The position numbers were made by a program, and so were the translations under genes. Under the pieces are notes generated by a model, which ran no database searches, was not told the DNA's origin, and saw only the letters and a list, made by a program, of their open reading frames with translations. A stretch of 64,000 nucleotides of DNA. Source: Sycon ciliatum (lineage: Eukaryota > Porifera > Calcarea > Leucosolenida > Sycettidae). Each line of letters opens with the position of its first letter. Positions within the stretch are counted from its first letter, which is position 1. Of this stretch, positions 3,185 to 64,000 are shown one piece after another. The stretch is taken from assembly GCF_964019385.1 (NCBI RefSeq), contig NC_088646.1, forward strand, positions 4,774,778 through 4,838,777, in the 5' to 3' direction.

Positions 3185-3188
3185 TTAA

Positions 3189-4049
3189 AGGGGAAGTATA
3201 CCCTAAAATCAAATTTTCACCAGTTGTAGTCTTCTGGGTGCTGAGTCGAATGGTCTTGGTCCGAGGAAGCTGCAACGCTCCCTTCCTACTTGAATCCCAA
3301 TCGAACTCGCGCACTTCCACCGAAACTGGGTGACTGCGCCCTACTAGATGGGGATTTGTATGCAAAATGTCACTAAAAGCGCCATTTCGTTCTTATAAAA
3401 GCACGGATGACCGCGATTGGCCCATATGTTGTAGTCTTTTGGACGCTGAGTCGACTGGTTTTGGTCCGAAAAGGCTGCGATGCAGCGTTCCTCCTTTATT
3501 CCCAATCGAACATGCTTGAACAAGCGGTCACGTGCTCCTGGGTGCCCAAATCACCTCGTCACCGCGCCAGCAGGCGACAACTTTCACACCAAGGTTCAAC
3601 TCGAGTTCAACTCGAGTGACAGGACTGCACCCAAAAAAGGTCAAACAGGCTAGTAAGTTGTACCCTGCAGGCACGGTGACCAGGTGACTGGTGTACGCAG
3701 GAGCACGTGACCGCTTGTTCAACCATGTTCGATTGGGAATAAAGGAGGAACGCTGCATCGCAGCCTTTTCGGACCAAAACCAGTCGACTCAGCGTCCAAA
3801 AGACTACAACATATGGGCCAATCGCGGTCATCCGTGCTTTTATAAGAACGAAATGGCGCTTTTAGTGACATTTTGCATACAAATCCCCATCTCGTAGGGC
3901 GCAGTCACCCAGTTTCGGTGGAAGTGCGCGAGTTCGATTGGGATTCAAGTAGGAAGGGAGCGCCTCAGCTTCCTCGGACCAAGACCATTCGACTCAGCAC
4001 CCCGAAGACTACAACTGGTGAAAATTTGATTTTAGGGTATACTTCCCCT
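3189..4049. mobile_element. Long foldback element flanked by TTAA
   Basis: The element begins AGGGGAAG and ends CTTCCCCT, with TTAA at 3185-3188 and 4050-4053. The left ~345 bp and the right ~345 bp are nearly perfect inverted copies around a ~170-bp centre, so the whole 861 bp can fold into one hairpin. A second copy lies at 19321-20170. TTAA targets occur in piggyBac and Kolobok transposons, and the AGGG terminus favours Kolobok. It has no transposase. Frames that appear open on both strands are products of the palindrome. Confidence 0.8.
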
Positions 4050-4053
4050 TTAA

Positions 4054-23109: not shown

Positions 23110-24362
23110 GTACCACTCACACTACCTGGTATACGGGGTGGCCCAAGAGTCCGGGAAAAGTTCAGCGCCAACTTAGCTCAGTGACCAATGTCTCTCTTTC
23201 TTAGTCTCTTACGGTCTTACCAGGACTATTCACAGGCAAACTTTTCGAAACAACACGGTCCCACCGTGAACTAATGCGGGAGATCACATTCCTTCACGCC
23301 TTCACATGATTTCGGGATAGTCCATTTAGCATCGGGCGGTGTAGTGAGGCTGAAGTTGGAAAAGTCTTGCACCCCCCAGCCATGCTGCCCATTGAAGAAG
23401 AACTCAGCTGGCAAACCCGTGTCTGCATAGAATGCAAAGCCGAATACAAGTTCATCGGCCGGAGGTATGTTCCTGTACCAGTTGACTTCCCTGTCGTGGA
23501 ATGGCTTCTTGCCATAGAATGGTAGAGTATTGGATATTGTGCTAGGGCTAGGTGGCAGCCATGGTTTGCCAAAGATGCAGCATGGAGGCGTCCATGATGG
23601 CCGATCGTCAAACGTTATGAAATAGGATACATTGTTGACGTTCAGAAAGCGACACGTGAAGTTGTCGCCTTCTACAAAGATCGGCACACAAAAGTCATAG
23701 TACTCTTCGATCATTGAAAGCTTGCTCCAGTCGTAATATGAGCGGCCCCTGCCCTTTCTGCTTCGCTCAGGTACCTTTCCATCTGCATAAGGTGGTATAG
23801 GGTCTTCTGGAAGTACGTGATACAGCGTCCAATCCGAGATCCACTTCTCTGGCCAGTGATCCTTCGGGGGTTCATTGAGCGCTGACCCAGCTGGTAATGA
23901 GTTCAGGGCATCAATTGTTTTACTCATTTGAAGCCGGCCCTTAGCATCATGCTGCCTCTTGCCAAGAGAAACAGCAATGCTGGTGCAGATTAGGGAGACC
24001 AGCAGAGCTGAAACTACATGTATGAACGCTTTGAGAAACATAGTGCTGAAGCTCACTGCCCGAGTACCAGCGCCCGGATGCTGCAGAAATAGCCGAGGAA
24101 GTACATGTAACTACAATGCAGCAGTAAAGCTGCTCGTGTAGCTGCATAGATCTACTGCTAGTACTGGCAGTACTACTGAGTACTGGTAATAAAACGCACA
24201 AGGACAATGATGTCAATGCACTAAGAACTAAGAATGTCATGCAGTTGAGTCAAATGAAAGTCGCTATTTGGTGTGTGGTGGTCGTTTGAGCGACCACCGT
24301 CTCTCGCACACTGCATGCCCACGATGACATCTGCCATCATGCGATGGACAAGCTCAGCTCCC
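23110..24362. repeat. Segmental duplication, copy 1
   Basis: Coding region, 3' flank (CAGTGACCAATGTCTCTC through CACCGTGAACTA) and 5' flank (up to CATGCCCACGATGACATC) are all shared with 33555-35002 in the same orientation. The duplicated block therefore included the whole gene and its putative promoter. Confidence 0.75.
23271..24041 (-). CDS. Small membrane-anchored or secreted protein, paralogue 1
   Basis: An intronless frame. The ATG at 24041 (MFLKAF) is chosen because the paralogue keeps it and the longer open frame starts with GTG. The ~256-aa product has one N-terminal hydrophobic helix (about residues 5-26, HVVSALLVSLICTSIAVSL), then a short linker, then a Trp/Tyr/Cys-rich domain with WPEKWISDWTLYHVLPEDP, a YYDW motif, ITFDDRPSWTPPCCIFGKPW and a terminal IPKSC. 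NFTC, NVS and NFS sites suggest N-glycosylation. A pattern of YDW, a WYR motif followed by an FY..TGLP stretch, and a DAKW.xPKSC end loosely recalls the plant At4g14100-like and ependymin-related secreted proteins. This is a resemblance only, and function is unknown. Confidence 0.7.
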   Translation of the reverse strand: MFLKAFIHVVSALLVSLICTSIAVSLGKRQHDAKGRLQMSKTIDALNSLPAGSALNEPPKDHWPEKWISDWTLYHVLPEDPIPPYADGKVPERSRKGRGRSYYDWSKLSMIEEYYDFCVPIFVEGDNFTCRFLNVNNVSYFITFDDRPSWTPPCCIFGKPWLPPSPSTISNTLPFYGKKPFHDREVNWYRNIPPADELVFGFAFYADTGLPAEFFFNGQHGWGVQDFSNFSLTTPPDAKWTIPKSCEGVKECDLPH

Positions 24363-28429: not shown

Positions 28430-28622
28430 CCGGAGCTCGCGCTTTTCCGCCGACTTGGCAACTGCCCTATCTGTTAAAAATGAATAGAATCCGAAAGAGA
28501 ATACTATTATGTTGTCATGAAAATGATGAATTCCATCCACAATATAATTGTATGTTTGGCTGTTGCAACTTGCAAGATGTCACGCCAATTGGGATAGGAT
28601 AAATTAATACATTGCATTTCAA
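28430..28622. repeat. Dispersed repeat, also at 41400-41640
   Basis: The block with ACAATATAATTGTATGTTTG and CACGCCAATTGGGATAGGAT is repeated with minor changes at 41400-41640. It lies exactly at the 5' junction of the retroelement that begins at 28623. Confidence 0.65.
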
Positions 28623-30656
28623 GTGCGACAACAAAGAAGCACATTTCCATCAAACAAGCCTTGGTACTCTGCTGTTCACCATCGTCAGAGGCGGCTTCGG
28701 GATCGCCTTTTCGCCAAGGCCAAACGTCTCGGATCTACAGATAGTTGGATAGCGTATAGACTCTCACGTAACTGTCTTACCTCCTTGCTCCGGAAGGCGA
28801 AACGCCATTATCACGAGAGGATGGCGAGAGACATGGCTCAGCATCATGGAACTCGTACATGGTGGCGCAAAGCAAAGATCCTTTGTAATGTGAATCGCCC
28901 GTCTCCGGTTATCCCTGACCTCTACCATGACAACCAAGCCTACCCAGCCACGAGTAATACGGAAAAGACGAATCTCCTAGCCAAAGTGTTTGCGAGCTAC
29001 AGCCAGGCGCCACTGCTAACACCTGACCTGCACTCAGCTGGTATTTTAACACCCACGTCCACTGTGAAGTTCTCCATACAACCATTCTCTGTGCAGTCCG
29101 TATTTGACACGCTATCCAGACTTCCCATTCAACGTAAAACCGCTGGACTGCTGAACAATCGCATCCTTCGTGAAACAGCTGAGGTCACGTCACAGTCTCT
29201 TTCCGCCCTTTTCAACCGCTGCTTGCTGTCCAGTACTCAGCCCAGGGAGTGGAAATCTGCCGTTGTTGTACCTGTGTTCAAGGGAAAAGGTAATCCTTCT
29301 CACCCAGTCAATTACCGTCCTATATCGCTGTTAAATGCAGTTGCCAAATTGTATGAGTCTATGATTAGCCGTCAGTTTTACTCGTTTGTTGAGAGCCATA
29401 AAATTATCAGTTCCAGCCAGTTTGGCTTTTGTCGAAAGAGGTCAACAGTTGACCAATTGGTACAGCTTACCTCAATTGTTTCGCGTGCATTTGACTCTAA
29501 GTCTTCTTGTGACCAGCTGTTCCTTGATTTTTCTAAGGCCTTTGACAGAGTTAGTCATCATTTAGTTATTCAATCTGTTTCAGGTTGGTGTTCTCTTTCT
29601 GCCTGTTCTTGGGTGAAGGACTTTATCAGTGATCGTAGTATTTGCGTTCGCATTGGCCAAACTCTTTCTGACCCTTTGCCCATCACCGCTGGCGTACCCC
29701 AAGGTTCCCATCTCGGCCCGCTTCTTTTTAACCTGTGCATCAACTCCTTTCCTGATGCCCCTGCTTCTAGTACCCTATCCCTTTTTGCTGATGACTCTAA
29801 TTTAATTCTTGTTTCTCCAGCAAACACCTCACTTCCTATCCATCATGCATTGCTCCAGACTGACATTGATAAGTGTTGTCAATGGTCATCAGCTACTGCC
29901 ATGACGTTTAACACCAGTAAATGCGTCCACCTACCCTTTCAAAAATATGCATTAGCCCCCGGCCCGTCATCCCCCTTGACAATGAACGGTGTGCCTATTC
30001 AGAAAGGTGATAGCCACTGTCATCTCGGCGTGACTATCACTCCTTCACTAAATTTTTCTGACCATATAAAATCTATCACCCATAAGTTTCGCAGTCGTGT
30101 TTTTGTGTTGCGCCATATGGCCCATTTCCTTTCTGCTTCAACCGTGAATTTGCTCTACAAGTGTTACGTACGACCACTGTTAGAATACGCAGTCCCTGTC
30201 TGGTCATTCGCCGTATCCCATTCAGATTCGCTTACGTTAGACCGACTGCAAGCCGTTGCTGCTCGTTCATATCTGCTTTGTAAGACCCGGCACCCTCCTG
30301 AGTGGGAAACTCCGAAGCAGATTCTTAATCGTACTTGTGACTGGTCATCCCTGAAGTGGCGTCGTCAGATTCTGTCCTTGCTGTATTTTCATCATGTGTT
30401 TTACCAGTTTCCGTCTTTGCTAATTCGTTTCAAATTCAATGTATCCCTTAGTTGTCGTCACCCGTCCTCTATAGTTTTACCTCGTTCTGGCGCCCATTTC
30501 CTTAAATCCCCTCTCTTCAGTTTATCTGTGGAATGGAACAAACTTCCAGAACACATCCGCTGCGTTCAGTCCTCTGTCAATTTTCGCATTGCTCTAAAGG
30601 CTCATTACTCTCAGCATAGATATTCTCTGACTGGAATTCCGAACTTTTCCGTTTGA
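28623..30656 (+). CDS. Non-LTR retrotransposon reverse transcriptase, long open frame
   Basis: 677 open codons without an internal stop, though the first codon is GTG, so the true ORF2 start was lost with the 5' end. Residues 1-150 are the basic linker that usually follows the endonuclease (KPWYSAVHHRQRRLRDRLF). The polymerase follows: VNYRPISLLNAVAKLYESMI, SQFGFCRKRSTVDQLV, LFLDFSKAFDRVSH, TAGVPQGSHLGPLLFNL and FADD at 388-391. C-terminal thumb segments HCHLGVTITPSLNF and YKCYVRPLLEYAVPVW are intact. No endonuclease domain is present. An AATAAA-like start leads into (TACAA)n at 30908-30945, the 3' tail. The open frame implies a young, 5'-truncated insertion of the CR1/Jockey/L2 type. Confidence 0.85.
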   Translation: MRQQRSTFPSNKPWYSAVHHRQRRLRDRLFAKAKRLGSTDSWIAYRLSRNCLTSLLRKAKRHYHERMARDMAQHHGTRTWWRKAKILCNVNRPSPVIPDLYHDNQAYPATSNTEKTNLLAKVFASYSQAPLLTPDLHSAGILTPTSTVKFSIQPFSVQSVFDTLSRLPIQRKTAGLLNNRILRETAEVTSQSLSALFNRCLLSSTQPREWKSAVVVPVFKGKGNPSHPVNYRPISLLNAVAKLYESMISRQFYSFVESHKIISSSQFGFCRKRSTVDQLVQLTSIVSRAFDSKSSCDQLFLDFSKAFDRVSHHLVIQSVSGWCSLSACSWVKDFISDRSICVRIGQTLSDPLPITAGVPQGSHLGPLLFNLCINSFPDAPASSTLSLFADDSNLILVSPANTSLPIHHALLQTDIDKCCQWSSATAMTFNTSKCVHLPFQKYALAPGPSSPLTMNGVPIQKGDSHCHLGVTITPSLNFSDHIKSITHKFRSRVFVLRHMAHFLSASTVNLLYKCYVRPLLEYAVPVWSFAVSHSDSLTLDRLQAVAARSYLLCKTRHPPEWETPKQILNRTCDWSSLKWRRQILSLLYFHHVFYQFPSLLIRFKFNVSLSCRHPSSIVLPRSGAHFLKSPLFSLSVEWNKLPEHIRCVQSSVNFRIALKAHYSQHRYSLTGIPNFSV

Positions 30657-33697: not shown

Positions 33698-33721
33698 TCT
33701 CTCTCTCTCACTCTCTCTCTC
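33623..33721. repeat. (CT)n microsatellite
   Basis: About 100 bp of CT dinucleotides with a few interruptions. At the homologous place in copy 1 (near 23190) there are only a few CT units, so the tract expanded after duplication. Confidence 0.95.
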
Positions 33722-33781
33722 TTACTCTCTTATCATGACTATTCATAGGCAAGCTGCCTGAAACAACCGTCCCACCGTGAA

Positions 33782-34543
33782 CTAGTGCGGGAGATCGCAT
33801 TCCTTGACGCCTTCACATGATTTCGGCAAAATCCATTTAGCATCGGGCGGTGTAGTTAGGCTCAAGTTGGCAAAGTCTTGCAGCGCCCAGCCATGCTGCC
33901 CATTGAAGAAGAACTCAGCGGGCAAACCCGTGTCTGCATAGAATCCATAGCCGAATGTAAGCTCACCGGCCGGAGGTGTGTTCCTGTACCAGTTGACTTC
34001 CCTGTCGTGGAATGGCTTCTTGCCATAGAATGGTAGAGTACTGGATATTGTGCTAGGGCTAGGTGGCAGCCATGGTTTGCCAAAGATGCAGCATGGAGGC
34101 GTCCATGATGGCCGATCGTCAAACGTTATGAAATAGGATACATTGTTGACGTTCAGAAAGTGACACGTGAAGTTGTGGCCTTCCACAAAGATCGGCACAC
34201 AAAAGTCATAGTACTCCTCGATGATTGCCAGCTTGCTCCAGTCGTAATAGGTGCGGCCCCTGCCCTTTCTGCTTTGCTCAGGCACCTTTCCATCTGCATA
34301 AGGTGGTGTAGGGTCTTCTGGAAGCACGTGATACAGCGTCCAATCCGAGATCCACTTCTCTGGCCAGTGATCCTTCGGGGGATCATTGAGCGCTGACTCG
34401 GCTTGTGATGAGTGCTGGGTATCAATTATTTTACTCATTTTTATCCCCTCAGCATCATGCTGCCTCTTGCCAAGAGAAACAGCAATGCTGCTGCAGATTA
34501 GGGAGACCAGCAGAGCTGAAACTATGAACGCTTTGAGAAACAT
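33782..34543 (-). CDS. Small membrane-anchored or secreted protein, paralogue 2
   Basis: Intronless paralogue of 23271-24041. The start is placed at ATG 34543 (MFLKAF), giving 253 aa. An upstream in-frame ATG at 34750 would give 322 aa, but its extra codons cross a 43-bp tandem repeat that is read in three different frames, so the extension is probably fortuitous. The hydrophobic helix VSALLVSLICSSIAVSL, the YYDW, PSWTPPCCIFGKPW, FYADTGLPAEFFFNGQHGW and terminal IPKSC-like (LPKSC) motifs are all retained. Differences are spread as substitutions without frame damage, suggesting both copies are under constraint. Confidence 0.7.
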   Translation of the reverse strand: MFLKAFIVSALLVSLICSSIAVSLGKRQHDAEGIKMSKIIDTQHSSQAESALNDPPKDHWPEKWISDWTLYHVLPEDPTPPYADGKVPEQSRKGRGRTYYDWSKLAIIEEYYDFCVPIFVEGHNFTCHFLNVNNVSYFITFDDRPSWTPPCCIFGKPWLPPSPSTISSTLPFYGKKPFHDREVNWYRNTPPAGELTFGYGFYADTGLPAEFFFNGQHGWALQDFANLSLTTPPDAKWILPKSCEGVKECDLPH

Positions 34544-34571
34544 AGTGCTGAAGCTCGCTGCCCAAGCACCA

Positions 34572-34700
34572 CTGTTTGTCTGGATACTGCAGTAATAGCC
34601 GAGGGAGAAACAAGCTGTTTGTCTGGATACTGCAGTAATAGGCGAGGAAGAAACAAGCTGTTTGTCTGGATACTGCAGTAATAGCCGAGAAAGAAACAAA
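34572..34700. repeat. Three tandem copies of a 43-bp unit
   Basis: Units begin CTGTTTGTCTGGATACTGCA at 34572, 34615 and 34658. They lie directly 5' of the paralogue 2 start. Copy 1 has a single degenerate unit at the same place. Confidence 0.85.
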
Positions 34701-36300: not shown

Positions 36301-38960
36301 CCAGGGAGTCGTACTCAAACTAGGGTAGTAGGGAGGTGACACGGCACAGAAATCCGTGTCACAGGGGTTGACTCGCACCCGTGACCCCTCGTTGTTATTT
36401 TTGGAATAGTTCAGGCCAGTCCAGTCCGAAAGGTCATACTCGGATCGACTCGCCTTCTGTACTTCACCTCCAAGCGTGCAGCATGGGTGTCTAGTTTTTG
36501 AAATTATCGAGGCAGCACATTTCGTTTACAGCCCATAGTAGTAGTAGTAGTAGTAGAATTTATTATTTTGATAGGGAAGGCCCTACAGACGTTGCCGTCT
36601 TGTTACAGGGAACCCTAAGTGCTCTTTACAGAGCGAAACAAAAACGGATAGATGCTCAACCTGACGACACGAGACAGGCAGAGAATTCCACCTATCAGCG
36701 CCAAGGAAAGAAATGGAGAACATGCCATATCTAGTGGTAGCAGCGGGCAAAGAAAGTGAAGAGAATGATTGCCCTCTAGTGCGCCTCTCGGTGCAAGTAG
36801 CAGCCGACTGGAGGGTGAACATTGAGGAAAGAAGAGGACTTGTAAGCTGATGAATACAGCGGAAAACAAAAATAAAAAGCCTCAAGTTGAGACGAGATTC
36901 GAGGGAGTATAACTTAGCGTGCCGCAAAACAAAGACAGTCGGGGTACGGCGAGGGAGACCAAAAACCTGTTTCATGCTGATATGACTTAAAGTAACAAGG
37001 CGAGAGTATAAAGATGGTGTAAGACAGTGAGCATACGAGTTGCTGGCGTATTCAATAGTGGATTGGATGAGGGATAAATAAAATATTCGCTTAGTTGTGT
37101 GATCTACTGTACGGCGGCAGCGGCGGAATGCTCCTATCTTCTTATAAACAGATGTACACACATGGTTGACTTGATCCTCAAAGGTGAGGTGTTGGTCAAT
37201 AATGAGGCCAAGATAACGCGCTGTGGCAGAAGGTCGAATATCGACACCACCGCATGCAATGGTAAGATCCGGCGGAAGAGGCAGAGCCTTCTTCCGAAGC
37301 ACCATGAACTTCGTTTTCTGGGCATTCAAGATGAGACCAATGCTTCCAAGGTACGTATTTAGTCTGTTCAACTCACTTGTCAACTTGTGCTGAAGTTCTC
37401 CAGTAGACTGACAGTGTATATAAAAGGCGATATCGTCAGCATACTGTTGGGACTCTGCGTGGCGAAGTACTCCAGGGACATGTCGCACGTACAAAGAGAA
37501 TAACAGAGGCCCTAGCACCGACCCTTGCGGAACGCCTCGTGTACAATGTGTCTCGTCTCCTCTGTTATTTCCAATTTTCACCTGTTGTCGTCGACCCTGG
37601 AGATAGCTGGAGAACCACTGTAGTGCTACTCCGCTTATGCCAATAGCTTGAAGCTCGTTAAGTAGTAGTTCATGGCGTACCCGATCGAAGGCCTTGCTCA
37701 TGTCCACGAGTACAACCCCGCAATACTCGCCCTTGTCCACACTCATCATCCAGCGGTTTACTGCGAGAGTTAACGCATCCTCACAGGAGTGCCCTCTGCG
37801 GTAGGCGAATTGCTCGTCTGGGAGAATACGAAGCTCAGCGTGATCTTGAAGGAACCTAATCATTTGCCGATGTACTACCTTCTCAAGGATCTTAGAAACA
37901 ATCGGCAAAAGTGAAACGGGGCGATAATTCGACGCTTCAGATTTGTCCCCTGACTTGTGGACAGGACACACTGTAGCCAATTTGTAGACGTCTGGCACCA
38001 TTCCAGTACTCAAGGACTCGTTTATGATCTGCGCTATGGGACCTGCAGCGGCAGGCTCACAGAGGCGTAGGAGCAGAGGAGGAATGTCATCCGATCCAGC
38101 TGCCTTGGCACAGTTCAAATGCTTCAACAGGTCGCTTATCTCCAGAGCTGAAACGGCACGAAATTCTTTAAAAGATGGGGCGTCTCACTCGCCAGTATTC
38201 TTTGAAAGACTACCAGCAATTTGTTTACCTCCTGCCATGTCCGAACTACTTGATAGCAGTGATGGCAACAGCAGCAGTTATGAGACAGCGTGTAGTGTTA
38301 CGGTAACTGTTCAGAACTGTTCAGAGTCGTATCCTAGGTTAATCCGAATACTAAAAATTGACCCAAATTGCACATAACACGAAGCTGGTTTTTGAAAATT
38401 GTAAGTCGTGTATCTGCCCCATTTCTTCTTTATGACTTGCACAATACACCAGTCTTCCTAAACAACACATTTATAGCAGGGGTACCATACAAGAGAGCTA
38501 CATTGTACATCTAGTCATACTGTCATAAACAGCCAGCATTTTTCCTGCAGCAGTCACACCACCATCATCATTATTTCCAGGGAAATCCTCTTACATTGTC
38601 AGCTCCTACGTCGTTAGATACAATGTAGGGGGCTGTAGGACCGGCTCGTCAAAAATAGAGAACCTGAACAAGCGTGCTCGGGACGTCTCAGCAATCGTAG
38701 TATGCTTGAGCACTCCTATAAAAACTTGATCAATGGCAAAATCGTTCCCCACAGAAAAATCATACTTTGCGGGTTTTGCGTTGCACGCTTGGAGGTGAAG
38801 TACAGAAGGCGAGTCGATCCGAGTATGACCTTTCGGACTGGACTGGACTGAACTATTCCAAAAAAACAACGAGGGGTCACCAGGTCACGGGTGCGAGTCA
38901 ACCCCTGTGACACGGATTTCTGTGCCGTGTCACCTCCCTAGTTTGAGTACGACTCCCTGG
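36301..38960. repeat. ~185-bp inverted repeats enclosing a reverse transcriptase
   Basis: The left arm 36301-36485 and right arm 38770-38960 are inverted copies with only small indels, from CCAGGGAGTCGTACTC to ACTTCACCTCCAAGCGTGCA. The enclosed 2.3 kb holds the 36538-38290 retroelement. The arms may be a TIR element into which the retroelement jumped, or an inverted duplication of unique DNA. Confidence 0.7.
36538..38290 (-). pseudogene. Non-LTR reverse transcriptase with (CTA)n tail
   Basis: A 514-codon open frame (36583-38127) without an initiating ATG encodes a complete polymerase: DKSEASNYRPVSLLPIVSKI, FAYRRGHSCEDALTLAV, LVDMSKAFDRVRHELLL, RGVPQGSVLGPLLF and QYADD (about residues 228-232), then the thumb (ARYLGLIIDQHLTF, QSTIEYASNSYA). 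Upstream the same frame continues past one TGA (near 38190) through SALEISDLLKHLNCAKA to about 38250. The 3' end runs into AAAATAATAAATTC(TAC)n at 36536-36558. YADD instead of FADD and the CTA tail separate it from the other copies. 5'-truncated, no endonuclease. Confidence 0.8.
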
Positions 38961-41856: not shown

Positions 41857-41937
41857 CTACATGTGCTCCAGCGACAGTGCCTGCAGAAGCGCTTGGTGAT
41901 CGGACACTTTGCGAATTGGCCAGAATATCAGGTCAAG
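41857..41937 (-). CDS. EYA: EYA terminal exon
   Basis: 81 bp after a CTGTCGCAG acceptor, reading LDLIFWPIRKVSDHQALLQA and LSLEHM then TAG. It corresponds to the FWRISSHSDL...ALELEYL end shared by EYA proteins. No AATAAA was recognised in the ~200 bp beyond. Confidence 0.9.
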   Translation of the reverse strand, partial: LDLIFWPIRKVSDHQALLQALSLEHM

Positions 41938-43689
41938 CTGCGACAGAGAAGATCAGATATATGGCAAACCAGAGTGGACACACCAAAACATACACATTCA
42001 GTCTGTGAGCTCGTGAGAAGAAAGAAGATACTGTAAACTAATCAGACCATGAGCGCGTGTTGATAGTGTTGATAGTGTTGATAGCGCCATGAATGCTACA
42101 AGGTATCACAAAGGACAGAGTCAGCTGGACATGCTAGAACAGTCTGTTGGCTGGTGAGCGATTTTCGCATGAAATTCAGAGTCACAAATTGGCCCTGTGT
42201 TCACCACGCCTGGAGTCTGTACCGTCTCAATCACCAGTTACCCCACCAACAGACCAGGGAAGTGTTTTCTCCCGGCCCCAGTACTTCTAGAACTGCATGT
42301 ATACTGTAAGCATCGAGCCATTGTGCCAGGACCATACACAATTGGTAACACCTGGGGCTGGGCCCATACACACTGGTAACACGCGGGGGGGGGGGGGGGG
42401 CATACACACTGGTACCACGCGGGGGCTGGGCCCATACACACTGGTAGCACACAGGCACATTGACAACATACATACCTTGCGACTCGCTGCTTCCTCTTCT
42501 CCGCCATTGCCTATGACCAAGTAGGTGCACTTGCCTCCAAAGCGTGCCTTGATTCTCTCAATGCATGCCTCTTTCCCTGTGTCGAACATGACCGAGAGTG
42601 ACGCACAAACAATGAGCAGACACAAGGCAACACAGATGCGATCATGAAACCCACATACTAGTAGTCCAGCACTACTGCAAACCAAACTGGCTAAGACTAT
42701 AATTTTATGACTCGTGCTGGTCAATTCAAACGCTGCATATGGTTTTATGCACATGATTGAATGCCAGTGACTTCAGGTTTCGTACATACTGAGAATGCAC
42801 TGTGCAGGTACAGCATGATTGACTCACACCGCACCCAGTTGACTCATGCATGCACTATCCATACAATGGTCAGCCTACCTCTCAGCTAACTCACCACAAG
42901 ATGCTGAACCGTACACTCCGGACAGCGGGAAGTGAGGCGCCATGCCGTACAGCAGCAACTTGCTAAGCGTGGGCACGAAGTGACAGCTAGACACCACCAC
43001 ATTGCTGCAGTTTGACCTAGACGGCAGATATGTTCACGTACAAAGGACAGCAAGGAAATCAAATACATGTACTATAGTTGCATAGGACTTGGTAAGCGCA
43101 CACAGCTCACTACGTTCAAGTAGGACTTGGTAAGCGCACACAGCTCACTACGTTCAAGTAGGACTTGGTAAGCGCACACAGCTCACTACGTTCAAGTAGG
43201 ACTTGGTAAGCGCACACAGCTCACTACGTTCAAATAGGACTTGGTAAGCGCACACAGCTCACTACGTTCAAGTAGGACTTGGTAAGCGCACACAGCTCAC
43301 TACGTTCAAGTAGGACTTGGTAAGCGCACACAGCTCACTACGTTCAAGTAGGACTTGGTAAGCGCACACAGCTCACTACGTTCAAGTAGGACTTGGTAAG
43401 CGCACACAGCTCACTACATTCAAGTATCGTAGTTAGATCATGCCGACTTTGACGCTTGAACTGAAAGTACGTTGTTGATGATTAGACTTTGTCCTCCTAG
43501 TCAGTCAATCTCAGCAGTGATGCAACAAATGATGTTTTCTTCGAACGAATTTTCCCTGGAATATTGCTTTGGCGAACGAACGAATATTCTATATTCTTCT
43601 GAAGTGGCTCAGGCACTTCAATCAATAAAACCTAATAGTCATATCGTCTACAGAACACGTGGATATTAAATATCTCTCTCCCATCCTCC

Positions 43690-43836: not shown

Positions 43837-44232
43837 CACGCAGGCACACACGGTCTTTCTCCCAGTCCTGTTTCATCATGTCGTCAATCGTTTGGTTGTC
43901 TCTTCCCTCGTCATTCTCTCCAATACTAATTCATGCCTTCCCCAACCCACCTCGTCTTGCTGTAAGTGACGACCAGGGCGTTGCATGAGAGTTGAACACT
44001 ACCAACAAAACTTCACTGGCATATGCTTGTGAACATGCCACTGGCCATGATGAATATGCAACTGACCCAGGCGTGGACTTGCAAGTGACCAACTATCATC
44101 ATTCCCTTACCTTGAACTAATGAGTGCAAGACACCTCAGTACAGTTCGATGCCAACTCTCTGCATTCTGATCAAGTTCTTGCTGTAACTGTTCATTCTCC
44201 TTTACCTGGTCCATTGGCAACAGATCTAAGAA

Positions 44233-44277
<45 letters not shown>

Positions 44278-47200
44278 GAGAGAGAGAGAGAGAGACAGAT
44301 AGGTTGAAACAGACAGAGACAAACGTCCCACACGTACATGTATTTCGTCCATACACGGTCCCACAGTCATATATCTCCAAGTATGGGCATTATTAGTCCA
44401 TTGAGTTGTGTGTTGCATGACTGTCACACACCCGGCTAATCAATACCCTATGTACTACACGTGCCTGCATACCTGTCAGTGCTGTTGTCCTTGCACGGCT
44501 CCATGTGTTCTGTATCTGCAAGTAACGATTGGCTAGCTGCCGGTACCATTGCTGCTGGACGGCTGCCTCCATTTCCCCGGATGCCTCGGGCGATGTTGGT
44601 GTGAAGCCATCATTTGCAAAGTCATAATCCCTGCACAAAATGCACAAAGGAATTCGCATAGGAACTATTAGAAGTGTGTACATCTACTGGTGACCATATT
44701 TAGTAGGCAATAGAAAAAGAGAGAAAAAAGTAGAAGACATATGCCATGGCTTTAGGTGATCAACACCCAGTGATAACGTCATACTTAAAAGGAGTAACAA
44801 AATGGAGACCATGAAGTTGGTTGCTCCAACGAGGAGCACACGCTTCTTGCCGAACTTGACACTTGACTGACTCACGACTGCCATCCGGAGCACACGAGGA
44901 GCACGTCGCACCTTCCGCTTTCGTTGGAGCAACCAACTTCATGACTGTTACCGCCGAAGTCGCAACTTCTAAGTTCAAAATGGAGACCTTTATAGCAACT
45001 ATAATTGGAGTTCTGCCAGGGTATGCTCTCAGAAGCTTTATCTGAATGCTTCACATAATGAAGTGCATTCACTGGATCATAAATCAAGTAATGCCGCCAT
45101 TTTCACATGCATAACCATGTGAGCTGTGGCATGCGTGCCAAAACTTAGTGCACCCGGGAAGCAAGGCACACCAGTGAAAGGGAAATCTTGCCTGATGGCC
45201 TGCTCACGCATCCAGTGCAATTGGATAAAGGCACGCAAGTGTGCATGCATGTACTGTGTATAACACGTCTATTTCGGTGAAACTTTTATTTCGGTAATTT
45301 CGGTGGAGAAACCAGGCACCTAAATTTAGATTACACCTAAAAGGTTCTAGAGTATGCACTGCTTACGAAGGGTAGGCTGGTCACCAAATAAGCACACCTA
45401 AAATTACATGCTGTACTAGTATTCACCACCTCACCGTAGATCTACAACCGTTCCATCTTGAACAACATCCTCAATGTGACACTGGTCAGATTTCTGGAAG
45501 AGAGGCACACACAGTAGCCAATAATTATATAGTACTTTCGAGGACACCTGCACTGCAAGTGGCTGTTCTGGATTCGACTGAAGCAGTTAGTCTCTGCTAC
45601 ACTCAGCTACACATACTGTCTACACAGTACTTCCTCCGCCCAAGCAAAATTTTCGCTTATCTTTACACTTTTTACTGATACATTCCAGGTTCTCAGAACG
45701 GCTCCTAACGACTCAGAAGCATTTTTACCGTACACACATCTTGTGCCGGATGCAATGAAACACGCTGGCTTTTTGCAACATGACACCTCTGCTCTGTACT
45801 CCAGTGGCACTCTAGCAGCACCCACCTTGATCAGTGACTGACTTCGTGTCTTTTTTACCAGGTCACTCGCATTCAACGCGCTCTTCTCTAGGCGTTTCTT
45901 TACTCTTTGCCGACTTCGCCGACTTGTTTGGAACTGGTACGCCTGAACCAGCAGATTTGTGGGATGGTGAAGTGCACAAGATGCAAAAATTGCTGCCAGA
46001 CACCTGTCATTGGGCTGAAGGAGATAAGCGAAAATTTTGCCTGGGCGGAGGAAGTACATGTGTGGTGAAAGTGTGACTGCATAGTCTGATCTTGCTTTTC
46101 TGGTCCTCGGCAATTCGCTACTTCCCTCCTCTACCTGGCCAAGGATAGTGGCCATGATTTGCAGCTAACACTCAGAGTACTGCCTTTCAGCCTTACCCAC
46201 TGACCTCAGCTAACACTCAGAGTACTGCCTTTCAGCCCTACCCGGTACCCTCAGCTAACACTCAGAGTGCAGTTCAGTTACCCGTTTTCCTCGCCCATAC
46301 GGATACCTTTGATAACAGCAAGCAAGGTCTATCGGTGCAGTATACCCAACGAACTACCAATCACACCAGGTCGCTTACCTCCAGGTCTTTGAGGAAGAAA
46401 GAGCTGTCCGACAGAGCAAAGATAAGCTTTTCTAGAGTCCTTCCAAGGTGATCCATGCGGTGGCAGTCCTAAAGGCGCAGTGAAGCACACCGGCAATGCC
46501 ACAGAAACACATCGAGGTTATACAAATGATGTCACGGTGAAAGTGAAGATGTGTTTTACAATGATTAAAATCATTGTAATGCTGCAGATATGCAGGTGGC
46601 TGTTGAAGCCAATAAGGCTGGCCCCCATCAGTGAAACTATGGCCTGTAATAGAACATGATGCTTATTTCCTCTCAGTGAGGTACATGTTTCCTGAAGGTT
46701 TCTTGTACATTGTTTTATAGAAGAAGTACCATTCAAAGAGAATCAAGCTATGACGTTCGACTGTAATCAGCCTGCACTATGAATTTTTTTATGTTTGACT
46801 GTGTAATACGTTCAGTGACCTGATGAGATTGTCACAGCCTAACAGAGGAGGTTGTAGATCACACACAGGCCCAGGAACAACGGGTAAAGCCAGAGCGTTT
46901 CAGACCTGGCACAAGCTGTGTACCGCTGGCTATAAAACATTTAAAAACTTCAAACATCACTTCCTCATAATTATATCACTTCCATTATACATGTACATGT
47001 ACATGTAGATGCTTACCAAGTCCATGGTCTTGGCAAAAGAACCGTCCAAGAGTGAACTGTACAGAAGCAGCGTCTCGTCAAGGTCCCAGATGAAGATTTT
47101 CTACAGAAGCCAGAGCAAACACTGTGCATGTCATGCTGTGCCCGGGCCATCAGAGTTATGCAAGTGTACTAGAATTAGTTATGCAAGTGTACTAGAATTC

Positions 47201-50200
47201 AAATAGGTTATAGAGGTTACTCCATACCCTCATGTTCTGTTTATGTGTTTAACCATGACACACAGTCATTTCATTACATCATCGTTTGGTCATGTGCATG
47301 ACATGGTGCATATTTTGTGACATCATCACATGTTAAGGTGCATGGTACATATTCCATTGATGTAACGTCGACGACATCATACTTCAAGTAATCATAGTCC
47401 GGCGATGTGCGCGGTGCATACTCTACAGATTGACAAGATGTGTGATGTAAACCAATATGGAGCTAACTGTTAGCTGCATGATGCTCAGTATGTATGCAGG
47501 ATCATCCCGGGCTTCTGCTGGGTGATCGCAATATCACGGGGTAGTTTCTTTTTCTCATTATGCGGCAATGTCACTGGGCATAGCAAAATTGGAGAACTTA
47601 GTGCTGTTTGTGCAACATGTTATGCAATGCACAGAGCACACTTCAAACGTGTAAAGACAATGTTGAGTACAGCGTAACTCACTCTGCCGGGATCGCCATC
47701 ATCCACAGGCTGCGACTTCCTTCGGCGTGGCCGCCCGGAGTCGAGCGTGTGCATTCGCATGCCCTGCGCATGCGGGTGCTGGTGCGGCTGGTGCTGATGC
47801 AGCTGGTGATGGTGTGCATGTTGGTGTTGCAGGGGCATTGTACCAGTGGCCGCGTACGTGTCTGATTGGACCAGCGGTGAGGTCGGTGATACACGCACGT
47901 CGCGTACCTGGTACGGCGGAGTGTTTGGAGTGATGAGGTACGGTGCGGGATGGTAGCACGTCGTCGTTGTGACCGGGTTGAGACCGGTGGCTTGTTGCAT
48001 TGCACCACTGGCAGTCGTGGCGTGTCTGTATCCCGGCGCAGTTGGAACGGCATGAAGAGTTTGAACTGCACCCGCAGTTTGCTGACTTGCTAACGGGTAG
48101 ACTGACACCTGGTGCTGTGAACATCAGCAAATCAGTGAGCACCAAGGCCAATGAAAGTTGGTAAGTGCAGACCAATGGATGCATAGTGCGTAACAACATG
48201 CTCTCCTGGCTCAAAACAAACACAAGAACCCCTCACTCAGTTTCAACCACACATGGTTCAACCATATTTGACACAATTGTTTCCTCCAAGGGGCACATTT
48301 GGGCATCCAGATATCATATTTATGATGGACTCGGCAGCTTATGATCGAATACTGGTAATGCTACGACATGGAGGCAGTAAAACATTGAGACAGTAAGGTA
48401 AAATGAGGTGTAGCATGCTATAACCTCAAGGTTTCCTTACCTGCTGTGCTGGGTTGGCCACGGGCACGACTGGTGTTGAGGAGCCATACACTGGTGTAGG
48501 CGTGTATCCCTGAAAGTATGTTCTCATCGGCGACGGCTGAGTGGTTGATGTGTGTTGTGCGGGCTGCTGTTGATGATGCTGGTGGTAAATGGCCGAGACA
48601 TGTGCAAGACTGTATCGCTGCGGGGACATGACTTCACTTGCGTCCGACAGTTTCTGGCTCCTGTCACTCTCCGAGGGTTGAGCAAGATGGCGGCGCTTCA
48701 CCAATGATTCTTCAAATAGTTTCTCACCAGCTGGAGAATGCTGTTGCTCGGGAGAATTTACCAGAGGGGCAACTAGTGGAGATGCAATTGTAGATTGTGC
48801 AAGTTGACCAACAGACTCAGCTGTACCAAGACCACCACCGGTTACAACAGAAGAGGCACTAACATCTGCATGCTGCTGCTGTTGCTGCTGCTGCTGTGAC
48901 ATCAGTTGTTGCTGATGCGGCTGTTGTGGTTGTTGCTGTTGCTGTTGTGGCTGTTGATGTTCTGGCTGCTGTTGTGACGACTGCTGGTGCTGCTGGTGCT
49001 GGTGGTGGTGGTGGTGGTGGTGCAGTGGGTGCACATCAGTCCTGGTGAAGGTTTGTGCGACCTGTCCACTGCCCGGCATAGGCCAGACAAAGCACGTGGC
49101 CTGCGCTTGCGCCTGCTCCTGTGGAGGAGTTTGATATGCCATTGACCCGATAGCCACAGTTGTGTCTTGCTGAGACGCAGTCCACTGGCCAGTCACAGGT
49201 ACTGCGGTCGCTCCCGATGTGGAATACGATGACGTTGGGTACTGCTCAGTCGTCTGTGTTTGCTGGTATGGCACTGCTGCAGGTGGAGAGGGTAACATGG
49301 ATGCCATGAACAAACTACAATCATGCACACTGAGTATTGGTGCAAGCGCCGCTTTCTCTCATTCCCTTAGCCAAAGTGGACTGGATCAAGGGAGGGTTGT
49401 GCTCACAATCGACGACACAACGCGAGCAAATGGGGTCAACAACCAGACTACGTGCAACAGTGGTGCAACAGAGGAGCAACATTGATAACTTACAATGGCA
49501 GAAACTTGCTCACACACAAAACAGTTCCCATGCGGCATCAGGAAGCAGGAGCAAAGGCTGAATAACATTAACCTGGTTTTACCATGTTCTCGGCTTGCTG
49601 AACCATACGAGGATCATTTGGGATGTCACATCTGTTTCCTTGCCGCCTTCTACCAGAGTGTTGCTGATATACACTTTTTCTACCAAGTGTGGTTGTAGCT
49701 CAAGAGGATGCCCGTTGAGGGCAGACACCTCCAGTTTTTTGGCAAGACGTTTCAGGCACAAAACAAGAATGTGTACAAATGCACGCATGCGTGATAGGTC
49801 GCAACCTGCGCAGTCCGCACGCGGACCCAGCACACATGTTCTAAAAGCCTAGTAAAAGGGGCACGGACAACACGTAGGTGAGGAATTAACTATACCTGCT
49901 GTTTGGGTCTCTGCTTGTCCACTCATCGTCTGACCTTGAATGGCACCAGGAATATACGCCATAGTTTGCTGGCCACTGCTCTGGTAGACCGGATAGGATG
50001 CGGCGTGCGTAGTCCTGGTTACGTGTGCTGCGGTTGCCTGGGCAACGGGGCTGATGATGTTGGCGGCTTGCATTAGCTGCTGTGCTGGTATAATCTCTCC
50101 ACTGGCTGCTGCCACATTGACTGCTCCCGTCCCAGCACCGTACTCTGGCCGGTTGATGTACCTTGCCTGGGGTACAGCAGCCGCCATTGTAACCATCGGA

Positions 50201-53200
50201 TGAAGAGATAGTGCTGCTGTTGCTGCTGCTGGTGCCGACAGGTTAGAGTCCCTGGTTAGTCAAGGAAATTAGAAAATAGTTTGTAAATACACACAGTCAA
50301 ACTTTGGGGAGCCTCCAGACCAGAACTTCTTACTCTTTGCTGTAGTTCTACGGAGGCTCCAGGCACCAATTTACCGTGAATAATAATTAGGTGTAGCGAC
50401 ACACTTTCTCAGCTCATCATGTATTGCAGAAATCACCTGTACAGTTCTTCAAAACCACCAGGAAGATAAGCATGTGGTCGTCACCGGCGAGCCTTATCTT
50501 GAATGAAGCACCAGGTGTTTGAAAGTCGCCACCTTCATTTATTCTCCTCCCTTGCAATATTGCCTTTGGGATAAAATTGAGTTGCAAGCAGATGGCAGAC
50601 AGCCAAGACCTGTCCAAGGCATTTATAGCACAGAGTGGTTTTGTCTAGGAGTGGTATCACACATGTGCATGTACTGGGGTAACCGTGGGCTCATCATCGT
50701 GACCCGACATTCGATATTGGGTGATTTTGCATAATCGGCAAGCCCTTTGTGATTCTCACTGAATGTGGCCAAATATGCAGCAGGAGTGGCAAAGGGATTG
50801 ATGCATGCATGCCCACAGTGAACTTTCCAACACCAGGGAACACAGGAGGGAACACTGGCCACCAGCGCTTATGTCACTGACATGTTCAGGGTAGCTATGC
50901 GTACGCACCCCACAAGTCTATGTACGCACAGTAAGATCAAGGCGGCCGGGCACTTCTCTGTGACTGGTTAGTGCCCTCAGTCACACCTACAAGCTGGTAA
51001 CCGGAGTTTTTGTCACGGCTGGTAACAAACTACAAGTAGAGGCACTTGCCTGGCCACTTCCCGGCAAAGTGGATGCCTACGCAAGAAACTGAAGCAGCCC
51101 CCATCACTTTTGTCCGGTGCAATTGTAGTTGCAGCACTGGCAGATCAGGAGTTGAGTCAACTGTTTGGTTTCAAGTGTTGTGTGTGTACGCTGCGTTCCC
51201 TCTGTGAGATCTTGTAACAAGTGAGCTACAGCTGCTCTGCAGCTAGCGTTTCAGTTGCGCTCTGCAGTGCCGAACAAGTACCAGCGCCTTTACCGAATTC
51301 CACTGCACTTGGTGAGCGACGCAGCTGAAAGTCTTGTCTCCGCATTAATTGAGACGTGATGGCGTGTGGCCATTGGTGGCCAGCTACTCTTTGCTTGAGA
51401 CCGGCCGGACACATGCATCAATGTCTTTGTTCTCTTCCTGATGTCCACTGACACGTGTGCTACCTCGTAGCCACAGGGCAAATTCACATGATCTGTGTTG
51501 CGGCTCCAGCCAGTCTAGGAGAACTTCAAGCTACTAGTAGTAGTACTCACTCGTCTCAACTCTCAACCAGCCGGCAAAGCTATTTTCCACACCAACATCT
51601 CAAAGTGCACACCATCAGAATAGAACAAAAAAGGTAAATTTACATCTAGTGCTTTTAGGGAACCGTCATAACGACACCAGAATACCAAGTTTTTGTTTAG
51701 CATCGTCCTAACAACGCAGGAATGTGCATTATCATGAGTCATAGCTCGACTACCAAACAGAAGCCTAAACTGGCGAACACCTCTTGGACAAAGAGAGGTG
51801 ACTCGATTCATGGCCGGTTCATTGAAATCGAGGAGCTGCAAATTCGACACACTCCGTACAAAAGAATCATTATCCAGGCTGCCTAACTTCATCCAAAAAT
51901 TCCAATCCTTTCTGGTACTGAACAGTACTGAACTATGCACCCAAGCGTTATCTCCTACTCATTATCAGGGTGAATTATTTATCTGTGGAACCTGGCACAC
52001 CCACACTGATCAGGGTAAACACCGACTGTTCCATGTTTTATCAATCAGCGGCAACAATGCTGTCCCATACAAGGAACTTGTTTTAGACTGAACCTAATCT
52101 CAAGTCTGACGCACACCAGGGAATATTCCTCTGACAAGCCGTGACCAAGTTGAATTGCGACATGTACGTAAACAATACGCTGGCACAGCGTTCTTTGCTG
52201 CGATATCCCCCATGGAGAAGCTGTCAAAGTATGGATAAGCAAACACGCTCAAGACTTCACACTTTCTGATCTTGGACTGCCCGTTTGCGCACTCCTACAG
52301 TGACCAACTACCAAAGCAAAACTTGGCGCGAAGATGTTGGCGGATGTTCCCCGCTGCGTACTGTCCCACAGCACGCAAGCATATCCACCAACATGATCAG
52401 GACAGCACTGGACTGCGGTGTCGAAGGACATTGTCATGTCAGACGATCACATTACAATGGCAGTTGTAAGTATAACCGCGCATCAAGCTGAGATTTGCTA
52501 CTCATGTACCAACACGCACTGTTTACCCATGCATTCTCGATGGTCTGTTGCAGCTAGCTGGGTCAGTAAGCCCGGTTACAAGACTGACGCAAACAATCAC
52601 ATTGTGAATCCACGTCCTGTGGTGTCAGCACAGCCGCATCCCTCGATTTGCCACCGACGGATGGATTGTCGCAAGACTGCTCCCAGCGTACTCGCACTAT
52701 GGCGGGCATTCCTCGGAAAGGGAGCCATGCATTATCGGGATGGGTTTCTACGAAGTTTAGACTGAATGCATATCCCTGACGCCCAATAGATCTGCATACC
52801 GTACTACTGGCAGCCATGGGATGATGTGCGCAATTATAATTTAGAAATACCAATACAGATACTTCAGGCAACAGTACTAGGTGCGGATGCTGCGTTGAAA
52901 AGAGCTCTTCCAGCGGGGTTAATGGTAGGTACTCGTACGAGATAGTACTGATACCTATTCCATGTCAGTTTACCGGTTTCTGAGCATGGTGACTAGAAAT
53001 ATTTCAGGAATTGAAATTGGAAGGTCAGATAGCTGAAATACCAAGCTTGAAGTATTACCTCACACCTTTTCACCACAGCTAGAGAGAGAGGGAGAGAGAA
53101 CCTAGCCACAGGAAGCTGTCATTGTACATACGACTGTTTGCGGGCAATGAAGCGGAAAAGGTGCGCCTACTAGAACTTTTGTATGAAATTGGTTTATCAG

Positions 53201-56200: not shown

Positions 56201-59200
56201 CGCCCTTGCATGAAAAGAGCCACATCCTCACCATGCTGTAAAGAGTATGCCCAGGCTGGAAGATGGGGTAATCATGCTGATTAGCTTCTCTTAGAACACC
56301 GAGTTTGTTTTTACTTTTTGACCATCTCTCCGGAATAGTTTTGAAGCCTCTCGATCAGACGCCATGTAGGATTTCCTGTACTGAGTGGACAGGAAATGTA
56401 ATCGCATGGGCTACGCGTGTGATTCGTGTTTATACAATCATGTTGATTTCCTTGAAGCGCAGTTGTACCAGCCCACCTTCCAGTGGGGTCCATCCAGTGT
56501 TACAAGTCCATGTCCTGTCAACCTCATCCGGTTTGCATCACAGACACTACCTTCTCCTTTTCGGTGCTTCTGTTGTTTCCGGAAACTCAACGCCTATTTT
56601 TAAAAGGCTGTTTACACAGTGCTTTTAAAAGTACAGTAAAGCCTTTCCTATTCCCGGTGCCTTGGCACGCCCACACCTCAGAATTCTCCATAGCCGCAGA
56701 AATAAACTACACCCACAATGGATAATGACAAAGTAATTCTCTTCAGCTTCGTTCGCTAGCCCCAGTTCTATACCATTCACAAGCATGCATGGTAAGCTCC
56801 GAGGGTTCTGATCTCTTTCACAGTAAAACAGTTTTTAAGCTGATTGCAGCGAAAAGGAAGAAATTCGCAGGATTTGACTGCACCCGCCTGCGTGTGCCCG
56901 GTTGAGGGAGGAGTGCGGATACGGCAGGGGAGTGCGGATACGGCAGGGGAGTGCGGATACGGCAGGGGAGTGCGGATACGGCAGGGGAGTGCGGATACGG
57001 CAGGGGAGTGCGGATACGGCAGGGGAGTGCGGATACGGCAGGGGAGTGCGGATACGGCAGGGGAGTGCGGATACGGCAGGGGAGTGCGGATACGGCAGGG
57101 GAGTGCGGATACGGCAGGGGAGTGCGGATACGGCAGGGGAGTGCGGATACGGCAGGGGAGTGCGGATACGGCAGGGGAGTGCGGATACGGCAGGGGAGTG
57201 CGGATACGGCAGGGGAGTGCGGATACGGCAGGGGAGTGCGGATACGGCAGGGGAGTGCGGATACGGCAGGGTAGTGCGGATACGGCAGGGGAGTGCGGAT
57301 ACGGCAGGGGAGTGCGGATACGGCAGGGGAGTGCGGATACGGCAGGGGAGTGCGGATACGGCAGGGGAGTGCGGATACGGCAGGGGAGTGCGGATACGGC
57401 AGGGGAGTGCGGATACGGCAGGGGAGTGCGGATACGGCAGGGGAGTGCGGATACGGCAGGGGAGTGCGGATACGGCAGGGTAGTGCGGATACGGCAGGGG
57501 AGTGCGGATACGGCAGGGGAGTGCGGATACGGCAGGGGAGTGCGGATACGGCAGGGGAGTGCGGATACGGCAGGGGAGTGCGGATACGGCAGGGGAGTGC
57601 GGATACGGCAGGGGAGTGCGGATACGGCAGGGGAGTGCGGATACGGCAGGGGAGTGCGGATACGGCAGGGGAGTGCGGATACGGCAGGGGAGTGCGGATA
57701 CGGCAGGGGAGTGCGGGTACGGCAGGGGAGTGCGGATACGGCAGGGGAGTGCGGATACGGCAGGGGAGTGCGGATACGGCAGGGGAGTGCGGATACGGCA
57801 GGGGAGTACGGATACGGCAGGGGAGTGCGGATACGGCAGGGGAGTGCGGATACGGCAGGGGAGTGCGGATACGGCAGGGGAGTGCGGATACGGCAGGGGA
57901 GTGCGGATACGGCAGGGGAGTGCGGATATGGCAGGGTAGTGCGGATACGGCAGGGGAGTGCGGATACGGCAGGGGAGTGCGGATACGGCAGGGGAGTGCG
58001 GATACGGCAGGGGAGTGCGGATACGGCAGGGGAGTGCGGATACGGCAGGGGAGTGCGGATACGGCAGGGGAGTGCGGATACGGCAGGGGAGTGCGGATAC
58101 GGCAGGGTAGTGCGGATACGGCAGGGGAGTGCGGATACGGCAGGGGAGTGCGGATACGGCAGGGGAGTGCGGATACGGCAGGGCCGCACAAGAGAGGTTC
58201 TGCTATACGTTAACAGCTACTTCAGTACACGTCCTAATATGCATCATTCTACCTAGTGCTTGTAGAAAACTTTGCCCACATGGCCAAGTAAGGAATAAGA
58301 ATGAAAAAATGGGGAAAGACTGAGGAGGAGAGTACTAGTAGGGCAAATGAAGTCACTACAAATCAGGGCCTGGAAGACCCATCTTTGATGATAACTAACT
58401 TGTTAGTGAGCCACAGTAAGGTTCAATCGCCCTCAATGATCTCGGAGTCGCTACAGCGTTTTTCAAGACATATGGGCCTGAGCGTCGTTCAGCTATGTCC
58501 ATGATAGAGAGAAAACAAGCTTCCAACACAACCGAAATCTTCCACACATTGACACATATGTAGAGAGGTGTTGCAATCTGATCACTACATGGTGGTGCTA
58601 TTAGGCAGATACTAGATAGATGGCACTGCATTGCCGTGAGTCTGACTTGTCTTCGATCTGCTGGCTTTCTCTGCATGCTTTTAAAGTAGATAAAGATCAT
58701 CCAGCAGAACTTCCCTTGTAGATCTACCCGGTTTCGGGCTTACCAATGTATGGTCATCATATTCTAGTATAGAATAACTGACTTGGCCCTAGTAGTAGTT
58801 GGGCACTCCTTGAGCACATGTTTTCCATCTCTGGTAACTCTCATTACAAAAGGTGTCGGTTTGGCTTTGTTCATTTGCTCATTGTTCAATTGCCACTCTT
58901 TGTCTCCTATTTAGTGTAGCAATGGTGCTGTACTGTAGATGATCACTGTACTCTGTTATGAATTGATTGGAAACTGTGATTCTCAGTTTTGCTAAAGTAA
59001 TTAGAATCCAACTACAATGACCATGCAGCACAGTGCGTGGCAAGTGTCATGCCGGATTTCTGGAAAGTCAAAATCTGCTGAGTGCAATCGCTAGCTGCCC
59101 AGTCTCTCCTTTCCAGGGTTTGTTATGCTGCTCAGGCATTGACAGATTAACAATGTGGCAGTCATGTATTTGTTTGATGTACCAGGTAATTAATGAGGCA

Positions 59201-63015: not shown

Positions 63016-64000
63016 AGTGGTGGACAGAATTATTGTCCCACCTTGCATTTTGGTCAACTTTTGGAATCTAAAGCCCAGCCTGGACAGAGCTGTGTGCCAA
63101 ACAGCCACAAAGCCGATGCATTTCAGGTATTGGCAATGAGTTTTGACAAAGCTGACCAGTTTTCCAGTATACTCACGATTTACCGTACAAAAAGTGGGAC
63201 AAAAATTATGGCCGAAATGTCACGTGTACGACTGGCAAAAGTTTTGCAACTGATTTTTGCGGGAAATTCAAAATCTGCACCACGTGGTGATTTTCCAGCC
63301 TGCTGACGGCTTCCTGACAACAATTTGAGTAATTTCACTTTGGTTTTCTGCACGATGGGGAGAGGAAAGGAGCTCAGTAAAGATAGTAGGGAATTTGTTG
63401 TTCAGATGAACAAGGAGGGTCTCTCGTCGCGATCTATAGCTGGATTGACGGGTCTCTGCGATCGTACGGTACGCAGAATTATTTCAGCGTTCAAAAAAAC
63501 TGGCGAAGTCGATACGAAGCCCCACACTGGTCGCCCAAGGAAGACTACCCCCAGGTTCGATCGCAGGCTGAAGGTGCTTTCTATGTGCAATAGATTCAAG
63601 ACGTCAACAAAACTGAGAGCCGAGTTGGCGCAGGACGGTGGAGACGCGGTCTCAGTGCGAACTGTGCGTCGCAGGCTGCAAAACAGTGGACTGCGAGGAT
63701 GTGTGGCCGTAAAAAAGCCGTTTATTTCGAAAGTAAACAAACTGAAGAGGATCAAATTCGCAAAAGCCCACAAGAATTGGACATGTGAGCAGTGGAGCCA
63801 AGTTCTGTGGACAGATGAGTCCAAGTTCAACCTGGTGGGCTCTGACGGGGCTGTCTACGTCAGAAGACGACCAGGTGAAGCCCTCGCTGACTCATGTACG
63901 CGGAAAACGGTGAAACATGGAGGCGGCAATATTATGATCTGGGGAGCGATGTCCGCCAAAGGCAGAGGCCGCCTGTACAAGGTCGACGGCAAATTAAACG
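63016..64000 (+). mobile_element. Tc1-like transposon, left part, cut by the window end
   Basis: Begins CAGTGGTGGACAGAATTATT directly after TA (63014-63015). A second, related AGTGGGACAAAAATTATGG lies ~175 bp further in, near 63190, giving the IR/DR arrangement of two direct repeats per inverted end found in many Tc1-like elements. The transposase follows in the same direction. Confidence 0.85.
63355..63999 (+). CDS. Tc1-like transposase, N-terminal 215 codons
   Basis: Open from ATG 63355 to the window end without a stop. Residues 1-120 are the paired-type DNA-binding region: a first helix-turn-helix (GLSSRSIAGLTGLCDRTVRR), the GRPRK hook (residues about 60-64), and a second with RVRRRLQ-type VRTVRRRLQNSGLRG. 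The catalytic part then starts: WSQVLWTDESKFNLVGSDG contains the first Asp of the DDE triad, followed by VKHGGGNIMIWGAMS. The second Asp and the Glu lie beyond the window. The enzyme cuts and pastes the element at TA sites in nuclear DNA. The clean frame suggests a young copy. Confidence 0.92.
   Translation, partial: MGRGKELSKDSREFVVQMNKEGLSSRSIAGLTGLCDRTVRRIISAFKKTGEVDTKPHTGRPRKTTPRFDRRLKVLSMCNRFKTSTKLRAELAQDGGDAVSVRTVRRRLQNSGLRGCVAVKKPFISKVNKLKRIKFAKAHKNWTCEQWSQVLWTDESKFNLVGSDGAVYVRRRPGEALADSCTRKTVKHGGGNIMIWGAMSAKGRGRLYKVDGKLN

Follow-up and report, generated by a model that had tools for sequence, protein, structure and literature searches.

The Eya homologue of the calcareous sponge Sycon ciliatum carries asparagine at the metal-binding aspartate of HAD motif IV and may act mainly as a Six coactivator

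The closest described counterparts of the gene studied here are the Eya and Six genes reported for the calcareous sponges Sycon ciliatum and Leucosolenia complicata (PMC4083861), where, as in the present assembly, one Eya accompanies three Six genes, including an ETSY and an ETNY type, and one partial Six gene. The available text of that report describes the calcisponge Eya as having a conserved ED and demosponges as being without Eya, and its main text contains zero occurrences each of 'phosphatase', 'catalytic' and 'residue'. In the accessible part of a second source, the acidic residues of motif IV are said to coordinate Mg, with a legend naming the motif IV Asp as an EYA2 metal ligand; among the choanoflagellate proteins examined there, from at least two species, this motif shows weaker conservation, and one of the five fungal EYA proteins has it in incomplete form (PMC8069645). 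On the part of that report available, erosion of motif IV is already known outside animals. In the literature searched, which for sponges comprised main-text reports, we found no case of an animal EYA with an eroded motif IV. The need for EYA tyrosine phosphatase in development is itself disputed, since flies are rescued without the activity, yet their robustness suffers, and work in mammalian cells points in the opposite direction.

We analysed one stretch of S. ciliatum DNA (64 kb, hereafter the window). The exons of the EYA domain were located by tblastn of an EYA2 domain against this window, exon borders were then set by hand reading, and the exons were joined by a script. All eight domain exons were matched, five of them (a, b, d, f and g) at E 0.034 or better; the matches to exons c, e and h were weak (E 1.2 to 3.7) and stood amid other weak chance matches. 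The resulting model, in the order of transcription, and the codon at issue are as follows.

49896..50251, minus strand: Eya N-terminal exon N1, in-frame; provisional 5' end of the model
48441..49276, minus strand: Eya N-terminal exon N2, in-frame, low-complexity with poly-Q and poly-H
47683..48114, minus strand: Eya N-terminal exon N3, in-frame, low-complexity, rich in H/Q/P/T
47017..47100, minus strand: Eya exon a with motif I, FIWDLDET (tblastn match)
46379..46468, minus strand: Eya exon b (tblastn match)
45435..45493, minus strand: Eya exon c (weak tblastn match, E 3.7; domain alignment)
44473..44630, minus strand: Eya exon d (tblastn match)
44111..44225, minus strand: Eya exon e (weak tblastn match, E 1.2; domain alignment)
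42895..43016, minus strand: Eya exon f with motif II, NVVVSS (tblastn match)
42476..42576, minus strand: Eya exon g with the motif III Lys and motif IV, bounded by GT-AG (phmmer and tblastn matches)
42506..42508, minus strand: Asn codon AAT, aligned with EYA2 Asp502 of HAD motif IV (alignments to human EYA2/EYA3)
41857..41937, minus strand: last Eya exon h with the stop codon and the C-terminal helix ending ALSLEHM (weak tblastn match, E 1.2; its end is the EYA2 end)

Joined across ten introns, all GT-AG, the 11 coding exons gave a single open frame of 810 aa with its sole stop at the end, and the eight ED exons gave a complete EYA domain of 269 aa whose C-terminal end coincides with that of EYA2. 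The domain scored 199.3 bits against the curated NCBIfam EYA profile TIGR01658 (cut-off 195.3) over residues 1-267 of 269, and aligned with human EYA2 over 1-269 and with EYA3 over 1-267 (E 9.2e-60 to 3.5e-57), at 38% and 39% identity, respectively. A Pfam search of the domain returned two matches, both under their cut-offs, and no match to an EYA model. The preceding 541 aa are rich in Q, A, T, P and S (28.1% P/S/T, 16.1% Q) and would, judged by this composition, form an activation-type region. That the locus is a pseudogene or a misjoined fragment, a reading with which the modest identity to human EYA2/3 would agree, is extremely improbable in view of the eleven exons, the ten canonical introns, the one open frame stopping where EYA2 stops and the score above the family's curated cut-off; with the gene model intact, we rejected it.

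Two further features of the gene were recorded. In exon h, the FWRI of human EYA2/EYA3 reads FWPI and is followed by RKVSDHQ, so that there are further changes at C-terminal positions common to human EYA2 and EYA3, and the intron between exons e and f holds a 38-base tandem repeat (43083-43426, 9.1 copies, 99%). Elsewhere in the window lies a 19-base minisatellite (56910-58183, ~67 copies, 98% match), where long runs lack stop codons in several reading frames of either strand. A sequence coding for a secreted-looking protein (SLGKRQHDA..., DHWPEKWISDWTLYHVLPED...) occurs twice, at 23191-24101 and 33704-34607, the copies being 90% identical, and this protein had no Pfam match at E 0.01. A large foldback element of ~870 bases, which matches its own reverse complement (~92%), is present twice (3185-4053 and 19314-20177), and three reverse-transcriptase open frames and one Tc1-type transposase frame are found at 20133-21509, 28608-30653, 36586-38184 and 63307-63999.

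The original prediction had placed an EYA homologue with Asn instead of a metal-binding Asp at 42476..42576, an interval that proved to be exactly one exon of the minus strand (acceptor ...cacag, donor gtatgt). The codon, read at 42508-42506 in the context GGC AAT GGC GGA and the peptide VIGNGGEEE, is Asn at EYA2 position 502, the numbering being that of our own alignment. When the unspliced frame of exon g was compared with PDB by phmmer, five sequences were matched, four of them EYA2 or EYA3 (E 1.4e-7 to 2e-7), and in the three exon g alignments listed the Asn stands over the Asp of IGDG; the alignment of the spliced 269-aa domain puts it on the same Asp as the single-exon match did. Exon g, with the first base of its Gly codon supplied by the preceding exon, translates to GKEACIERIKARFGGKCTYLVIGNGGEEEAASRK; the residue preceding GKEA is Cys once spliced, the Thr of the unspliced frame being intron sequence. 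The AAT codon and the EYA2/EYA3 alignments thus bear out the replacement that had been proposed.

The remainder of the active site is largely retained. In the same alignment (EYA2 numbers), Asp274, Asp276, Glu277, Thr278, Lys480, Gly501, Gly503, Glu505 and Glu506 are kept, in line with the earlier statement that DLDET, the GKEA Lys (480) and the Glu residues (505-507) are intact. Motif I (DxDxT) is present as WDLDET, motif II keeps its Ser/Thr character with Ser replacing Thr at 447 and 448, and motif III has Lys480; at motif IV the acidic metal ligand (Asp502) is absent and Glu506 is retained. We therefore classed the product as an EYA-domain protein and not as an active HAD phosphatase, because it has no acidic ligand at this place in motif IV. 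Of the 186 positions at which EYA2 and EYA3 agree, 92 are kept, and the stretch matching EYA2 479-508, which holds the Asn, keeps 18 of 22 such residues versus 74 of 164 elsewhere (p 0.001), this being the best kept of six segments and a comparison chosen after the counts were seen. By strict identity, five of the seven named catalytic positions are kept, not significantly above the rest (p 0.21). On these alignments, the Asp is lost from an otherwise well-conserved segment.

This pattern bears on a reading in which catalysis persists, with Mg or another metal held well enough by the side-chain oxygen of the Asn, the motif I Asp and the nearby Glu505-507, so that a weaker or differently metallated phosphatase would remain under selection. 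The retained motif I, motif II Ser, motif III Lys and Glu506, and the position of exon g within the best-kept segment, favour it, as does the measurable in vitro activity of mouse Eya3 carrying the D493N-equivalent change, reported in the available text of PMC5673202 for a motif I residue and not for the motif IV Asp. Against it, animal and plant EYAs are reported, in the part of PMC8069645 accessible, to have all catalytic residues, and by eye no new acidic residue compensates in the loop. On balance, we consider residual activity unlikely, though well worth keeping in mind.

The same codon could also have its Asp, and with it the metal site, restored after transcription or translation, either by A-to-I editing of AAT to IAT (read as GAT) or by spontaneous deamidation at Asn-Gly. 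The required change from AAT to GAT is exactly A-to-G, adenosine-deaminase domains are encoded in the genome (9 matches, a count that may include tRNA deaminases as well as ADARs), and Asn-Gly is the fastest deamidating pair. No RNA-editing duplex signal beyond shuffled controls was found, however, in the exon flanks within 3 kb: the best duplex (-40.7) fell inside the range of 20 shuffled-query controls (-45.7 to -36.0), 7 of the 20 being stronger, and the target A was mostly unpaired in local folds (0.75, 0.94 and 0.95). Deamidation of Asn-Gly in peptides, moreover, yields mostly isoAsp. Restoration by either route appears very improbable.

A second gene copy with the Asp had been named beforehand as an outcome that would overturn the proposal, and we looked for it in the assembly (538 Mb, 313 contigs). 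The EYA family profile gave two matches, exons g and a of the present gene, exon g as protein hit one place at E up to 10, and the 401-base stretch around exon g hit one place at 100%. These family-profile, protein and DNA searches of the assembly found no second Eya copy and no Asp-bearing haplotig, with the reservation that the profile detected just 2 of the 8 ED exons of the present gene and could therefore have missed a paralogue that is strongly diverged. Eya is apparently single-copy in the assembly. In prokaryote and viral contigs, no relative was confirmed among the 71 and 159 stretches that matched two peptide patterns each.

These searches also bear on the chance that the normal Eya of the species has Asp and that the AAT read here is an allele that is rare or still segregating, arose recently or reflects an assembly error. 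A single haplotype was found and the remaining active site is intact; in addition, GGC GAT would become GGC AAT through a CpG transition, within a CpG-poor coding sequence, from which methylation is presumed. In the ED coding sequence, CpG has an o/e of 0.58, with CA at 1.49 and TG at 1.38, and a C precedes 1 of 20 Asp codons versus 3 of 8 Asn codons, the present one included (p 0.058). The contiguity of the assembly, on the other hand, and the recovery of the present copy, without an Asp-bearing haplotig, by all three kinds of search argue against this reading, and we rate it as rather unlikely. A CpG-type change together with the good conservation of the active site nevertheless leaves both a recent or segregating change and residual activity plausible.

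Taken together, we favour, at roughly even chances, an intact Eya whose Mg-dependent phosphatase activity is weak or absent and which serves mainly as a Six coactivator. An Asp-to-Asn change would probably have arisen by the CpG-type G-to-A transition, and Asn, lacking the carboxylate, would bind Mg weakly; the two-step HAD reaction would then be slow or absent and, because Asn would hold Mg poorly, the Tyr phosphatase weak or absent. The C-terminal domain would meanwhile dock on Six and the N-terminal region activate transcription. The original prediction of a weakened phosphatase acting mainly as a coactivator is thus upheld in its EYA homology and motif IV Asp loss, and the loss of activity itself stays at the level of inference; our preference for the same reading draws on the apparent retention of the N-terminal activation-type region, the C-terminal helix and a Six1-type partner gene.

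Components that coactivation would need are present. The residue matching EYA2 Ala532, which we take to have a role in Six binding, is present in the last helix of the alignment. A profile search of the assembly gave four Six-domain matches, three full and one partial; of the three full Six genes, one has an ETSY homeodomain, a second has an ETNY homeodomain, and the third carries neither motif. The ETSY-type gene matches human SIX1 at E 2.4e-76, and the first helix of this Six1-type gene, QVACVCEVLQQ, within which position V17 of SIX1 presumably lies, is unchanged from human SIX1. V17E in the cofactor-binding domain of SIX1 is a known disease variant (PMC8293042). The partial Six-domain match (G000:C4:5300285-5300422) is on the same contig as Eya, ~0.5 Mb away, and resembles the partial SD/homeodomain genes described for calcisponges in the available text of PMC4083861.

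A coactivator of this kind has precedent in flies, where, in the parts of the reports accessible, genomic eya constructs carrying D493N, E728Q or the two together gave full rescue of eye development and of viability (PMC3595212) and Eya in the eye is described as primarily a transcriptional coactivator (PMC4793267). Several observations run against it. In mammalian cells, phosphatase activity was reported as necessary for reporter activation by Eya1/2/3, and BOR mutations lose activity (PMC3595212); in a later fly study, E728Q lowered eclosion (a ratio of 0.2 against the 0.3 expected), and in sensitised backgrounds eya without phosphatase activity failed, more so with E728Q than with D493N (PMC5673202). 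A long-dead enzyme, in particular, is argued against because DLDET, Lys480 and Glu506 are unchanged and 479-508 is the best-kept segment, and more loss would be expected.

Should the coactivator reading hold, the gene might constitute a natural animal EYA pseudophosphatase, the sole Eya of its sponge lineage being without a catalytic metal ligand while retaining Six-coactivator architecture, a proposal that we advance tentatively, at somewhat less than even confidence. An early-branching animal with no Eya other than one missing the metal ligand would put the non-catalytic role to a natural test and, if the proposal is true, the eroded motif IV of choanoflagellates would add the suggestion that catalysis was repeatedly dispensable near the animal base.

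Compared with known systems, the sponge domain resembles the phosphatase domain of human EYA2/EYA3 (PDB 3geb, 3hb0, 4egc and 9n0y) in the whole-ED alignment, motifs I-III, Glu506 and the C-terminal helix, and differs from it in the change of Asp502 to Asn and in an overall identity of 38-39%. The choanoflagellate proteins and one fungal EYA-domain protein, in the available text of PMC8069645, are similar in keeping motifs I-III with a less conserved or incomplete motif IV, and are unlike it in not being animal genes; the likeness is one of description and not of individual residues. The engineered phosphatase-dead Drosophila Eya (D493N, E728Q), in the part of PMC3595212 accessible, shares with it the loss of an acidic active-site residue, with developmental function largely kept, and differs in being engineered and in affecting residues other than the motif IV Asp.
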